Source: a virus
Direction: 5' to 3' (one strand)
DNA: 58,452 nucleotides
IMG/VR virus record: IMGVR_UViG_3300024430_000001
Location: 1 to 58,452 of that record
Shown: positions 7,190 to 37,805 of the stretch, piece by piece
Numbering within the stretch: the first letter of the stretch is position 1
Layout: each line of letters starts with the position of its first letter
Notes under the pieces: model-generated
The model's input: only the letters and a program-made list of their open reading frames with translations
What the model was told of the DNA's origin: nothing
The model's database searches: none
Made by a program: the position numbers and the translations under genes

Positions 7190-7594
7190 ATGGCCAACAA
7201 GCCGAAACTGCGCACCTACGTCCACCTCGCCATACCAGACGCCGACGGCAAGCCGACCGGCATGACCGAGTCGTTCGGGCCGGGCGATACCGTCCCGGAC
7301 TGGGCTGTCCCGCTCATCACCAACCCGAAGGCATGGGAAGTCGCACCGACCGCAGCGACGGCTCCCGCGCGGCAGGTGCGGGCAGAATCCACTGCCACCC
7401 CCGGCCCGGCGCCGACGCCGCCCGACATCAGCCGCACGGACGGGCCGAAGGTGCCGCCCCGCGGCGGCGCCGGATCCGGACGCGACGCATGGGCCGCCTA
7501 CGCAGCAGCCCACGGCGCCGAAATCAACGACGCGGCCACCCGCGAGGACATCATCGCCGCCCTCGACGAGCAGGGCATCCCCACCGCCGAGTAA
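7190..7594 (+). CDS. Head-associated protein with C-terminal HeH/SAP-like motif
   Basis: 134-aa protein, 2 nt after the capsid gene. The N-terminal 55 residues describe a small beta-rich domain (TYVHLAIPDADGK, then FGPGDTVPDW). A Pro/Ala linker follows, and residues 100-134 (DAWAAYAAAHGAEI, then TREDIIAALDEQG) resemble the LEM/HeH-type helical hairpin seen in proteins at this genome position. Function unknown; a DNA- or head-binding role is inference. Confidence 0.75.
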   Translation: MANKPKLRTYVHLAIPDADGKPTGMTESFGPGDTVPDWAVPLITNPKAWEVAPTAATAPARQVRAESTATPGPAPTPPDISRTDGPKVPPRGGAGSGRDAWAAYAAAHGAEINDAATREDIIAALDEQGIPTAE

Positions 7595-20669: not shown

Positions 20670-20810
20670 GAGAATTTCTTGGGCATGAAAACGGCCCGGT
20701 CGGCTGCCTGCCTACCCAGCGGCGGCCGTCCCGGACCGATGCCTTGGCTGACGAGCAGATTTAGGTGGCCTCGCCAGCTTCACCCCTCTACCGAAGGGAA
20801 CCCCACAACT

Positions 20811-21611
20811 ATGCACCAACTGAACCTTGTGGCCAACACTCTCGATCAACTTCGTTGTGAAGATGAGACCGGAGAGTGGTGGCTAGCCCGCTCCCTGATG
20901 CCCGTCATGGGCTACGTCAAGTGGGAGAACTTCGAGGAAGTGATCACGCGCGCCCGTGCGGCGGCGCGTAACTCCGGCCTCGACCCTGATCAGCATGCTT
21001 CCCGGCTCCAGGAAGTTGGGACGAAGTGGACACCGGGCGCAGGTGGTCGGGTTGACTACCGGCTCACCCGCTACGGCGCCTATCTGCTGGCAATGAACGG
21101 CGACCCGCGTAAGCCGGAGATCGCTGGGGCGCAGACCTACTTCGCGGTCAAGACCCGCGAGGCGGAGGCCGCGGCCCTGATCCCGTCTCCACGGCGGCCC
21201 CTCACCAACCGCGAGCTGGCCCTGATGGTCATCGAGGAAGCTGACCGGGCCGACCGGGCGGAGGCCGCGCTGGGGATCACCCAGCCGAAGGCGGAGGCAT
21301 ACGACGTCTTCCTCGACGCGGACGGCACCTACTCCTTTGAGCAGGTCGCCAAGATGCTGCATGCCGAGACCGGGCTGGGGCGCAACAATTTGATGAAGCG
21401 GCTGCGGGAACTCGGCGTGCTCGAGAAGAACAACGTCCCCTATCAGCGTCACCTCGAGCACTTCCACGTCGTCGCCCAGCACTTCGAGGGCGCAGACGGG
21501 CGACGCCGCGTCACCCACACCACCCGGGTCTATCCGTCCGGAGTGGACTTCATTCGACGCAAGGTGCTCGCCGGGCGCGGCATGCTGACCCCGGCTCTTA
21601 TGTCCCCCTAG
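20811..21611 (+). CDS. Phage antirepressor (BRO-N/KilAC type)
   Basis: 266-aa protein. Residues 1-125 resemble the BRO/DinD-like N-domain (ETGEWWLARSLMPVMGYVKW, then YRLTRYGAYLLAMNGD). Residues 165-255 resemble the ANT/KilAC C-domain (TYSFEQVAKMLHAETGLGRN, then MKRLRELGVLEKNNVPYQ). Such proteins bind and inactivate phage repressors and favour lytic growth. It stands alone between two terminators, 13 kb from the repressor gene. GAAGGGAA precedes the ATG. Confidence 0.85.
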   Translation: MHQLNLVANTLDQLRCEDETGEWWLARSLMPVMGYVKWENFEEVITRARAAARNSGLDPDQHASRLQEVGTKWTPGAGGRVDYRLTRYGAYLLAMNGDPRKPEIAGAQTYFAVKTREAEAAALIPSPRRPLTNRELALMVIEEADRADRAEAALGITQPKAEAYDVFLDADGTYSFEQVAKMLHAETGLGRNNLMKRLRELGVLEKNNVPYQRHLEHFHVVAQHFEGADGRRRVTHTTRVYPSGVDFIRRKVLAGRGMLTPALMSP

Positions 21612-30210: not shown

Positions 30211-30271
30211 GCGGAACACTCCACCACTGTTCCGCTGGAACACTTTGTGTACCGGACACTGCGGGTACCCT
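30211..30271 (+). promoter_or_regulatory. Operator and leaderless promoter of the first GntR gene
   Basis: Inverted repeat GCGGAACA/TGTTCCGC (30211-30218, 30228-30235) and a further GGAACACT (30237-30244). -10-like TACCCT (30266-30271) ends 6 nt before the ATG, so the mRNA is probably leaderless. Confidence 0.6.
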
Positions 30272-30277
30272 GGCGGT

Positions 30278-31024
30278 ATGGCCGAGCCTGCATTTCGCCT
30301 GATCGCGGACTCGATCCGCGCGGACATCACCGCCCGCCGCCTCGTCGAAGGCGACCGGCTGCCCACCGTCCGCGACCTGGCCGCCCGCTACGAGGTCCCG
30401 ATCGGGACAGTCACGCGCGCACTCGATCTGCTCCGCGCTGAAGGCGTGATCGTCTCCCATCACGGCCGCGGCCTCTACGTCCGCTCGTTCGCCCGGATCG
30501 TCCGCTCCTCACCAGGCCGGCTCGCCAAATCCCACTGGGGCGCAGGACATGCCATCCAGGACGCCGACACTGGCGACCGGGTCCGGGTCGTGCACGTCGA
30601 GGTCAGCGAGGTCCCCGCCCCGCCGTGGGCCGCCGAGGCGTTCGCACTGCCCGAGGGTGTGAGTGTGCTGGCCCGCGTCCGCAGGTTCGCCGTGGACGAC
30701 CGGATCGTGCAGCTGGCCACCTCCTACCTGCCACTGGCCGTCGTCCACACCGTGCCCTCCGTCGCCTACACCGGACCAGGACCAGGCGGGATTTACGCAC
30801 GCATGGCCGAGGCGGGACTGGAGCCGGTCAGGTTCCGGGAGCGCATCCGCAGCCGTACGCCCACTTCCGACGAGGCGACGATGCTGGCCCTGCCGACCGG
30901 GGTTGCCGTGCACGAGATCACCCGCTGGGCGTGGACACACGACGGGCAGTGTGTGGAGGTCAACCGCATGATTCTCGATGCGTCGGCCTACGACCTGGAG
31001 TATCTGTTCAGCTCGGAGGGCTGA
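30278..31024 (+). CDS. GntR-family regulator (HutC/UTRA type)
   Basis: 248-aa protein. Residues 8-72 form the winged helix (AEGDRLPTVRDLAARYEVP-type; PIGTVTRALDLLRAEGVIV; HHGRGLYVR). Residues 80-245 form a UTRA ligand domain (LPEGVSVLARVRRFAVDDRI; EVNRMILDASAYDLEYLF). The family includes KorSA-like repressors of actinobacterial conjugative elements. Probably autoregulated through the GGAACA repeats. Ligand unknown. Confidence 0.87.
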   Translation: MAEPAFRLIADSIRADITARRLVEGDRLPTVRDLAARYEVPIGTVTRALDLLRAEGVIVSHHGRGLYVRSFARIVRSSPGRLAKSHWGAGHAIQDADTGDRVRVVHVEVSEVPAPPWAAEAFALPEGVSVLARVRRFAVDDRIVQLATSYLPLAVVHTVPSVAYTGPGPGGIYARMAEAGLEPVRFRERIRSRTPTSDEATMLALPTGVAVHEITRWAWTHDGQCVEVNRMILDASAYDLEYLFSSEG

Positions 31025-31205: not shown

Positions 31206-31511
31206 GTGGATCGCTGGTCACGGACGACAGTGCGGGACCAGATAGCCGCCGACCTGCGCCGACGCATCGCCGACGGGGAGTGGCCCGAAGACCGGCGCAT
31301 GCCGGGTGAGGTGGCGTTATCCCAGGAGTACGAGGTGGCTCGGGGAACCATCCGGGAGGCGCTGGCCGTACTGCGCGAGGAAGGTCTCATTGAGACCGAC
31401 CGGGGCCGCGGATCATGGGTGGTACGACCGGTCAAGCGCCCAGCAGAACCGCCGCGGCGGGCCAGCCCGGACAGCTGGCGCACCTCGCCGTTCCAGCCGC
31501 CGCCCGGATGA
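31206..31511 (+). CDS. Short GntR winged-helix regulator
   Basis: 101-aa protein: only a winged helix (TVRDQIAADLRRRIADGEWP, MPGEVALSQEYEVARGTIRE, DRGRGSWVV) and a Pro-rich tail, without a ligand domain. GTG start. Probably a plain DNA-binding repressor of a nearby promoter. No ribosome binding site is obvious. Confidence 0.78.
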   Translation: MDRWSRTTVRDQIAADLRRRIADGEWPEDRRMPGEVALSQEYEVARGTIREALAVLREEGLIETDRGRGSWVVRPVKRPAEPPRRASPDSWRTSPFQPPPG

Positions 31512-32869: not shown

Positions 32870-33844
32870 TTATATTCCGCCCATCACGTCGACGCGATCG
32901 TAAGCCCTTCGTGCCCGCGCAGACCGCGCCGATCGACCATAGCGGCGCAGCATTTGAGGCGAATCCCACCCATTCAGCTCCATAAGATCACCTTCCGCGC
33001 CGCCAGCATCCAGCCAGCGGTGCGTGAAGGTATGGCGAAATTGATGAGGGTAGATTTTTAAGCCGATGCGCTTGCCCCGGCTTTCGATGGCTTGATAGAC
33101 GCCGCTCGGTGTGAGGGGACCTTTGGTGCCGAGCCACAGCCGGGAGGTGAACCGACCCGCCCTGTGGGTCGCTCTGGAACGCAGGTATCGGTCAAGGGCC
33201 TGGGCGCATTTGGCATCGAATTTGATGATGCGCTGCTTGCCGGCTTTTCCGGTGACCAGGAGTTCGAAGTTCCTCAAGTTCAAGTCATCTACTTCCAGGA
33301 CGGCCACCTCGGCGAGACGAGCTCCGCTGCACGCGTAGAGCCGTATCAGCGCAGCGTCGCGGCGGGACGAGAAATCTCGTCCCTTCTCGCAATCCTGGAC
33401 GAGGCGGGCAAGATCTTCACTTGCGATGACCGGCACGACTTTGTCGTCAATCGAGGGCGGCGACATCGACGCCAACGGGCTGGTCGTTTCCTCCTCGGCC
33501 GCATACCATTTCCAAAACTGTTGCAAGGCCCGATATTGATTGTTGGCATAGCCTTTTTCGTACGGACGCCCCTTCGGGCAGGGGGTCCGGGGATGACTGC
33601 GCGGCTTGCCACATCCGCAGCGCGTGCCACCTTCTTGAAACCAGGCCATGTAGAGCTCAAGGTGGCGTTTGCTGACGCTCGCCCAGTCGGCCACGTCTTG
33701 ATCGATAAGCCACCATGCGAGCTTCGCTGCGGCATCGGTGTAGGTGCGGCGCGTCTTGGGACTACGTCCCTTGGCGCGGAGCGAAAGCTCGAAGGATTCG
33801 ATCCATACCTGAAAGCTGGGGGGAAGATCTTCGTCAGGTCTCAT
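32870..33844 (-). CDS. Tyrosine-type integrase
   Basis: 324-aa site-specific recombinase. N-terminal SAM-like core-binding domain (about 8-120) contains a Cys insert TRCGCGKPRSHPRTPC. Catalytic residues fit the family: Arg176 (SGARLAEVAVLE), Lys200, His267 and Arg270 (YPHQFRHTF), Trp293 and Tyr302 (RRYGRS). It would recombine attP with the host tRNA-Thr. ATG 33844 follows GAGAGGA; ATG 33883 has no ribosome binding site. It lies next to attP, as is usual. Confidence 0.93.
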   Translation of the reverse strand: MRPDEDLPPSFQVWIESFELSLRAKGRSPKTRRTYTDAAAKLAWWLIDQDVADWASVSKRHLELYMAWFQEGGTRCGCGKPRSHPRTPCPKGRPYEKGYANNQYRALQQFWKWYAAEEETTSPLASMSPPSIDDKVVPVIASEDLARLVQDCEKGRDFSSRRDAALIRLYACSGARLAEVAVLEVDDLNLRNFELLVTGKAGKQRIIKFDAKCAQALDRYLRSRATHRAGRFTSRLWLGTKGPLTPSGVYQAIESRGKRIGLKIYPHQFRHTFTHRWLDAGGAEGDLMELNGWDSPQMLRRYGRSARSARARRAYDRVDVMGGI

Positions 33845-33859
33845 ATCTAGGCGGATCCT

Positions 33860-34011
33860 CTCTGACCGGTGTGCGATGGACATGCCGCATCGCTGCGGCG
33901 GTGTCGTTCCTGGTCAGAGGAACTTTGAGCCCAGTATCGGACTCGAACCGATAACCTTCCGCTTACAAGGCGGATGGGGCTCAACGGTATGCGATTCCTG
34001 CATCTGACCGG
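33860..34011. repeat. TCTGACC repeats around attP
   Basis: TCTGACCGG occurs at 33861-33869 and 34003-34011, and CTCTGACC (33860-33867) has its complement GGTCAGAG at 33912-33919. The three copies bracket the attP core and are candidate integrase arm-type sites. Confidence 0.5.
33927..33975 (-). other. attP core, 3' part of a tRNA-Thr(UGU)
   Basis: Read leftward: anticodon stem-loop CCGC-CTTGTAA-GCGG, variable bases, T arm ATCGG-TTCGAGT-CCGAT and acceptor strand ACTGGGC then TC. No D arm or 5' acceptor strand precedes it, so it is not a whole tRNA. Integration here would rebuild the host tRNA-Thr gene. It sits 83 bp upstream of the integrase start. Confidence 0.88.
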
Positions 34012-34063: not shown

Positions 34064-34639
34064 TCAATCTTTACTTTCTGGCGCTCCCCCAACAATGTCG
34101 ATTTGCTCCTTAATGCCACGCACGCGCTCCTCACGGTGACGTGCCTCCCGCGCCAGCTCGAGCACGATCCATCGGCGCTTCGTCTCATCATCAAGCGCTG
34201 TCGAGTTCTGGATGGTCTCCACGATCCAGGCGTCCTCGGGCGGTACGACGGACACCGGCAACTGACCCCGCTCGTAGTAGCCGACGCGCATAAGTAAGTC
34301 CATTTGGTCACGGTCAGTACGGTCGGCGACCTGGCGCACACTGGACTCGGCAACGTCGACTTCCATTCGAAGCCATCTGTCGATAGTGCGCTCGCGAAAG
34401 TCGATCTTTCTTGCAAGCGCGGCCTTGTTGCGACGGGGTATCTCGTCAAGCAATTCGTTGATGATCGTCGCCCATACTTCCCGGTTCACTACTCCCGCCA
34501 CCAGCGCATCGTACCGGACACCAGTGTCCGGTCGCGAGGGTTCCGCATGGCGCAGTACACGTGGAGTCAGTAAGTCGATACCCCTGCGGCGGATCGCTCG
34601 GTCACGTTGACGCAGATCCATACCTCGCTGGATAGCCAT
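34064..34639 (-). CDS. Immunity repressor (HTH)
   Basis: 191-aa protein. The central part (LLDEIPRRNKAALARKIDFR, then ERTIDRWLRMEVDVAESSVR) looks like an HTH DNA-binding domain; the C-terminus is charged and helical. The gene is leftward and divergent from the early operon, next to attP and integrase. Its promoter TTGACC-N17-TAGAGT has a dyad operator in the spacer, and the -10 ends 6 nt before the ATG, so the mRNA is leaderless and self-regulated. Confidence 0.78.
   Translation of the reverse strand: MAIQRGMDLRQRDRAIRRRGIDLLTPRVLRHAEPSRPDTGVRYDALVAGVVNREVWATIINELLDEIPRRNKAALARKIDFRERTIDRWLRMEVDVAESSVRQVADRTDRDQMDLLMRVGYYERGQLPVSVVPPEDAWIVETIQNSTALDDETKRRWIVLELAREARHREERVRGIKEQIDIVGGAPESKD
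34514..34531. promoter_or_regulatory. Repressor operator inside the repressor gene
   Basis: Perfect dyad CCGGACA-CCAG-TGTCCGG within the repressor coding sequence. Best match to the operator consensus; may act as an auxiliary site for looping. Confidence 0.75.
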
Positions 34640-34645
34640 GACGCC

Positions 34646-34722
34646 ACTCTATGCGGACATTCGTGTCCGGTCAAACCTCAAAAACCACACCCTTGCCAGA
34701 CACGCATGTCCAGACCTATAGT
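34646..34722. promoter_or_regulatory. Divergent lysis/lysogeny promoters with dyad operators
   Basis: Leftward: -35 TTGACC (34674-34669), 17-bp spacer, -10 TAGAGT (34651-34646), operator GCGGACA-TTCG-TGTCCGG (34653-34670). Rightward: -35 TTGCCA (34693-34698), 18-bp spacer, -10 TATAGT (34717-34722), operator CCAGACA-CGCA-TGTCCAG (34696-34713). Half sites GTCGGACA (34721-34728) and CTGGACA (34755-34761) follow. Confidence 0.83.
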
Positions 34723-34729
34723 CGGACAC

Positions 34730-35059
34730 GTGAGTCGCAGAAACGCCAGAAAGTCTGGACATCCAAGTCGGTACGCGCCACGTATCCGCTTACGCGAGTA
34801 CAGATCCAATGGCAAGAAGGAAGCGCTTCTTGACGCCGCCACCTACGCCCTTGGAAAGACCACGGACCTCTCCCGAGCCGAACTGTTTGAGGTAAGCGAC
34901 CGCACCATCCGCCGCGCCCGGCTCGGCATTCTGGGCGAGGATTTCATGGCGAAGGTCGTATCCGCGCTGAAACCTCACGAGTCCGACCTTGTCAATCTCG
35001 ATCTGGCTATCACGACCGTCGGGCTCGATACCTTCTTCGAGGTGTCCGATGGCTGGTGA
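34730..35059 (+). CDS. Early DNA-binding protein (Cro/excisionase-like position)
   Basis: 109-aa basic protein from a GTG only 7 nt after the rightward -10, hence leaderless. KKEALLDAATYALGKTTDLS then RAELFEVSDRTIRRARLGIL resembles a helix-turn-helix. First gene of the rightward early transcript, the place of Cro or excisionase. Function inferred from place. Confidence 0.65.
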   Translation: MSRRNARKSGHPSRYAPRIRLREYRSNGKKEALLDAATYALGKTTDLSRAELFEVSDRTIRRARLGILGEDFMAKVVSALKPHESDLVNLDLAITTVGLDTFFEVSDGW

Positions 35060-35294
35060 CTCTGTGCGAAGCATCGCTGGCCGGATAGCGGCCCACGCTC
35101 GTTGGGCCAAGCAAGATCGGGTTGACGGCACCAAGCCGGCCCGAGCGGGCTTCATGAATCGGTTCATCCGAGAGGTTGATCCAGAGGGAGTCCTGCCGCC
35201 TGACGAGCGCGCCCGACGGGCGAACAGCGCGATGCGCGCTCACATGTCCCGCTTGGCGCTGCGTAGTGCCAAGCGGCGAGCCAAGGCCGCATGA
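35049..35294 (+). CDS. Conserved small basic protein
   Basis: 81-aa protein (GRIAAHARWAKQDRVDGTKP, then FMNRFIREVDPEGVLPPDER and RANSAMRAHMSRLALRSAKR). This composition is common in actinophage early regions; function unknown. ATG overlaps the previous gene by 11 nt. Confidence 0.75.
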   Translation: MAGDSVRSIAGRIAAHARWAKQDRVDGTKPARAGFMNRFIREVDPEGVLPPDERARRANSAMRAHMSRLALRSAKRRAKAA

Positions 35295-37351: not shown

Positions 37352-37539
37352 GCACCGTCCGCCCGTTCAAAGCGGCGACCGGCCGCTCCGCGAAGGCCAG
37401 GCAGCAGGCCGACCTGATCGGGACCTGCGCCGCCTGTAAGCGGGGGATCTTCACCGGCCAAGACCGTGTGCGGGTCACGACTCCGCACCTGATCGGCCTC
37501 GTCCACGACCCTGACTGTGTCCCGGATGGTGCGCGATGA
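37348..37539 (+). CDS. Small zinc-finger-like protein
   Basis: 63-aa basic protein with CAACKRGIFTGQDRVRV and a later HDPDC, a CxxC...HxxxC-like set. Common type in actinophages. Function unknown. Confidence 0.65.
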   Translation: MSTVRPFKAATGRSAKARQQADLIGTCAACKRGIFTGQDRVRVTTPHLIGLVHDPDCVPDGAR

Positions 37540-37805
37540 GGGACTGGCGAGACGACGCGGCATGCCTGGGCTACGACCCCGAGGGCTGGTGGCCGGTGGG
37601 TCAAAGCCACTCCCCGCCTAACGCCGGTCGGGTGGCGGCGGCGAAAGCCATCTGCCGCCGCTGCCCATCCCAAAACCCGTGCCTCACCTGGGCGCTGGAG
37701 AACGGCGAACACGGCATCTGGGGCGGCATGACCGAGGAGGAGCGGCTGATCCTCCTCGGCCGCGAGGACTGGCTGGCCCGCGCCGAGGTGGTGACCCATG
37801 GGTGA
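37536..37805 (+). CDS. WhiB-family iron-sulfur transcription factor
   Basis: 89-aa protein with the four Fe-S cluster Cys (Cys10, Cys40, Cys43, Cys49: DDAACLGYDP, AICRRCPSQNPCL) and the turn GIWGGMTEEER at 60-70. WhiB-like proteins bind sigma factor region 4 and are restricted to actinobacteria and their phages. It may redirect host transcription. Overlaps neighbours by 4 and 8 nt. Confidence 0.92.
   Translation: MRDWRDDAACLGYDPEGWWPVGQSHSPPNAGRVAAAKAICRRCPSQNPCLTWALENGEHGIWGGMTEEERLILLGREDWLARAEVVTHG

Follow-up and report, generated by a model that had tools for sequence, protein, structure and literature searches.

In mycobacteriophage BPs, the integrase (gene 32) and repressor (gene 33) genes run leftward and face a divergent cro-like gene (gene 34), and a palindromic operator, OR, lies between the -10 and -35 of PR. 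A further operator, Orep, is located downstream of Prep, a promoter unregulated in the lysogen; the repressor gene contains attP, and additional operators occur across the genome (PMC4557955). In the immB region of the telomere phage PY54, which has a Gram-negative host, a repressor (cI) and a cro gene are divergent; both are expressed from leaderless mRNAs, as shown by RACE, and Cro uses one operator (PMC4488713). Leaderless mRNAs are frequent in Streptomyces (PMC4681348), and in phiC31 a single frame yields three isoforms of the repressor (PMC4557955).

Each feature of the locus described here has a precedent in these phages, the operator in the PR spacer in BPs, the leaderless regulator genes in PY54. 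The locus resides in a virus record (IMG/VR IMGVR_UViG_3300024430_000001, positions 1-58,452), analyzed as one window of 58,452 bases with a G+C content of 67%. It is read, with a probability of about 0.8, as the immunity region of a temperate actinobacterial phage, with putative operators in the spacers of two divergent promoters and, most likely, a third, weaker start at a proposed promoter called Pint. As in BPs, integrase and repressor genes are leftward, the Cro-like gene is divergent, and a palindromic dyad lies in the PR spacer; unlike BPs, the window features a dyad also in the Prep spacer, an att core outside the repressor gene, and no further good sites. PY54, an unrelated phage, shares the divergent repressor and cro genes and the leaderless mRNAs, which are predicted for the window.

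Gene order and probable integration site

Terminase, portal, protease, major head and endolysin genes occupy the left part of the window, an integrase gene the centre, and genes for a DnaB-like helicase and a replication initiation protein the right part. The terminase shares 50-55% identity with its counterparts in phages of Streptomyces, Gordonia and Arthrobacter, and the window is therefore assigned to an actinobacterial tailed phage. The gene order, as the position of the att core, is read directly from the DNA, and corresponds to a standard immunity layout. A tyrosine integrase gene (32870-33883, minus strand) is followed by a tRNA-Thr-derived, attP-like core, a repressor-like gene (34064-34639, minus strand), a divergent Cro-like gene (34730-35059, plus strand) and a gene of the PHROG 2842 family (35049-35294, plus strand). 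Two divergent regulator genes thus surround a control region, and integrase gene and att core are adjacent. Two GntR-type regulator genes (30245-31024 and 31206-31511, plus strand), one full length, the other made by the N-terminal domain only, are neighbours immediately to the left of the integrase gene; a WhiB-like transcription factor gene (37536-37805, plus strand) is part of the early rightward operon.

The repressor-like protein (191 aa from ATG 34639) matches the transcriptional repressor family PHROG 3949 over residues 53-158 (E=1e-5). The 109-aa Cro-like protein is called an HTH protein from its position and from weak profile matches (E about 0.2); its counterparts at the same place in related phages match HTH families. 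Homologues of the two proteins were not found by tblastn in phages (for the repressor, also in plasmids), and exact-peptide scans gave no match in viral contigs (both proteins) or genome contigs (repressor). Distant alignments of repressors, as of Cro-like proteins, were too weak to use, and AlphaFold models of both the 191-aa repressor and the shorter form proposed below, made without alignment, had low confidence and no fold match. Since neither a homologue nor a confident fold was obtained, the assigned roles rest on weak profiles and position, and the putative identity of the repressor on a single modest profile match plus synteny. No peptidase domain match was found in the repressor-like protein, so induction may run via an Ant-type antirepressor rather than RecA cleavage. 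A gene of the Ant type (PHROG 130/63; DinD-like by NCBIfam) is located at 20679-21611 (plus strand), in the lysis-side region.

The order repressor, Cro-like, PHROG 2842 is common to Streptomyces phage Kromp (genes 36-39) and the IMG/VR relatives G003 (L008/L136), L132 and L133. In all, an integrase gene is followed by a leftward gene of repressor-like or HTH type and a divergent HTH gene running rightward, and the PHROG 2842 relative has the same place. These phages differ from the window in their operator sequences, and their repressors are not recognisably homologous to that of the window by pairwise search. Such operator differences are as expected for different immunity groups. In L132 the Cro-like gene has a leaderless-type PR (TTGCAA-17-TACAGT, 6 nt, ATG) with CTCCGG repeats in the spacer. 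Repeats of the CTCCGG type precede both divergent regulator genes in this metagenomic relative (2571-2723). G003 has a GTATC-type dyad beside the rightward start, and the rightward gene of Kromp a Shine-Dalgarno sequence, unlike the Cro-like gene of the window, predicted to be leaderless.

The attP-like core (33926-33976, minus strand) corresponds to the 3' part of a tRNA-Thr(TGT) gene, and likely is the attP core; no full tRNA was found at this position. None of 84,980 species genomes contained an exact 42-nt copy of the core, and viral contigs gave no exact match either. The order of integrase and repressor genes, both leftward, and the nearby core recall BPs, where integration truncates and thereby activates the repressor. 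The core lies some 90 bp past the stop of the repressor gene (34064), hence outside it, which argues against integration-dependent immunity of this type; it is considered very unlikely here. While the phage genome is circular, transcription from Prep could continue into the integrase gene, and integration would separate the two.

Predicted divergent promoters and operator dyads

Dyads, promoter-like boxes and start codons are observed features of the control region. A consensus scan identified Prep (TTGACC-17-TAGAGT, 34646-34674, minus strand, 9/12 matches) and PR (TTGCCA-18-TATAGT, 34693-34722, plus strand, 10/12 matches). By a strict simple scan the 58-kb window holds 5 sigma-70-like promoters, two of which are Prep and PR; between 33.8 and 35.8 kb they are the only promoter-like sites (0.3 expected from shuffles). 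ATG 34639 starts 6 nt past the Prep -10, GTG 34730 7 nt past the PR -10, and the two codons open frames of 191 and 109 aa. GTG 34730 is the sole in-frame ATG, GTG or TTG from PR to residue 73 of the Cro-like protein, and a leaderless start is therefore the natural reading for this gene. Both regulators are predicted to be expressed from leaderless mRNAs.

Three dyads of one type, CCGGACA-N4-TGTCCGG, are found within 200 bp. OR (CCAGACACGCATGTCCAG, 34696-34713) resides in the PR spacer and has 2 mismatches (12/14), Orep (GCGGACATTCGTGTCCGG, 34653-34670) in the Prep spacer and has 1 mismatch (13/14), and Oint (CCGGACACCAGTGTCCGG, 34514-34531), inside the repressor ORF, has none (14/14). Predicted operators hence overlap both promoters. 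The initial annotation correctly placed dyads of this type in both spacers; the consensus it gave fits all three, perfectly in the internal copy only. Its placement exactly between the -35 and -10 boxes was nearly right: at each promoter the dyad covers the final 2-3 bases of the -35, and a gap of 1 bp at Prep, or of 3 bp at PR, separates it from the -10. On the Prep side, the order after the dyad is A, TAGAGT, 6 nt, ATG.

Palindromes may arise by chance in G+C-rich DNA, and when up to 3 mismatches are allowed the window is not enriched (12 sites versus 7.6 expected, not significant on its own); a test for clustering of short inverted repeats in general was also not significant, in contrast to the motif-specific test, which was. 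By first-order Markov resampling of the 58-kb window, sites expected per 58 kb are 0.0 with 0 mismatches, 0.04 with 1 and 0.6 with 2, and the sole further site with up to 2 mismatches is at 7295, within the virion gene block. Of the four sites of this quality, three cluster within 200 bp, at the only pair of divergent promoters. Because of these low expectations and the single site elsewhere, the clustering is not due to chance, and the view that the dyads are fortuitous palindromes is barely credible. Three symmetric sites in 200 bp, with no other good ones, also differ from Cluster A stoperators, asymmetric repressor sites which are many and genome-wide.

Paired GGACA-N4-TGTCC dyads are found at many other loci, where a repressor homologue is absent, one weak match apart; the motif alone therefore does not identify relatives. 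Tandem runs of the same dyad occur in many viral contigs of different backgrounds (at 2894 in L019, 4918 in L040, 8377 in L121, and others), and some look like repeat arrays rather than operators.

Dyad quality decreases from the internal to the Prep to the PR copy, so that the poorest site is at PR and the two best are on the repressor side. A simple lysogeny repressor would not be expected to show this order, and the Cro-like protein may be a main user of the repressor-side sites. The dyads could even be mainly operators of the Cro-like protein, serving to shut off the repressor, which would use other sites or share these. In lambda-like switches both proteins share operators, which fits sharing. 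The PR spacer, however, is also filled by a dyad, and the inverted repeats seen between 34400 and 34800 include no other motif of comparable quality; primary use by the Cro-like protein is judged unlikely.

The dyad within the repressor frame

Oint lies 108-125 bp downstream of ATG 34639, in agreement with the perfect copy reported earlier at 120 bp into the repressor gene. It may act as an auxiliary operator in the style of lac O2 or gal OI, from which the repressor loops to Orep or OR, or blocks elongation along the gene that encodes it, the repressor having ATG 34639 as single start. The best promoter and an ATG are indeed at Prep, the internal site is the strongest dyad, and repressors such as BPs gp33 are tetramers; gp33 is reported, however, not to bridge DNA molecules (PMC4557955). 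Centre-to-centre distances to the other dyads, 139 and 182 bp, correspond to 13.2 and 17.3 helical turns, and the sites are thus not in phase. Apart from the presence of the site itself, nothing found speaks for looping, which the initial annotation suggested as possible. An auxiliary role also leaves unexplained the TACGAT-N6-GTG beside the dyad, and is considered a less likely option.

When read in the direction of the repressor, Oint is followed by TACGAT, 6 nt, and GTG 34501, which is in the repressor frame; the distance from -10 to start resembles that at Prep. A promoter, Pint (TCGCGA-18-TACGAT, 34508-34537, minus strand), is proposed around the dyad, with a weak -35 (3/6) and a -10 matching at 4/6, from which a repressor of 145 aa (34064-34501, minus strand) would start 6 nt past the -10. 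The argument for Pint was made post hoc, after the site was seen. None of 128 strands with this dyad core at other retrieved loci has a -10 and a start at these distances; the combined pattern, searched in IMG/VR perhaps without the record of the window, matched twice, neither time convincingly (ORFs of 23 and 1 codons).

Three PHROG repressor profiles place the N-terminus within about 3 residues of GTG 34501: residue 7 of the short form aligns to position 10 of the PHROG 3949 profile, residue 4 to position 4 of PHROG 5301, and residue 12 to position 13 of PHROG 4583, the latter two matches being weak (E about 0.08). In codons 1-46 of the repressor gene the repressor frame is not preferred as coding, and the signal climbs near 34500; the test is weak, because the Cro-like gene fails it as well over its first 30 codons.

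The perfect dyad is better read as part of a third operator-promoter-start cassette, giving a shorter repressor or marking its true start, than as a looping site. If so, Oint, although inside the 191-aa ORF as first described, may sit at the start of the repressor domain rather than inside the gene. Taken as a whole, these observations point to GTG 34501 as a repressor start, on its own or together with ATG 34639, with about even chances. The fuller arrangement, in which two nested leaderless starts (ATG 34639 and GTG 34501) have their own promoters with the same operator motif in the spacers, and the perfect dyad sets the ratio of the 191-aa and 145-aa forms, is conceivable, with chances somewhat below even. 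A real third cassette would resemble the phiC31 repressor in yielding N-terminally nested repressors from one frame. The likeness would be one of arrangement; in phiC31 the sites are numerous and dispersed, and the divergent rep/cro layout is missing.

Operation and significance of the proposed switch

That the region is an immunity switch, with operators in the spacers and putative leaderless starts on both sides, as first proposed, is well supported by its anatomy and by synteny in related phages. Prep and PR would fire divergently, giving leaderless mRNAs for the repressor and the Cro-like protein from predicted RNA start sites. A protein bound to a dyad would fill the spacer between -35 and -10, and keep RNA polymerase off. 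At PR the dyad would keep lytic genes off; at Prep it would let the repressor regulate itself, or the Cro-like protein shut the repressor off. The perfect dyad most likely acts likewise at the weaker Pint, controlling a short repressor from the proposed second start, GTG 34501, made beside the 191-aa form or replacing it.

The locus adds a compact, readable immunity region of an actinobacterial phage, with a repressor having no close relative in the collections searched, and its operators predict the immunity specificity of this phage. If the third cassette is true, one operator motif would tune two repressor forms with no leader sequences, in a switch made by three cassettes, all leaderless.
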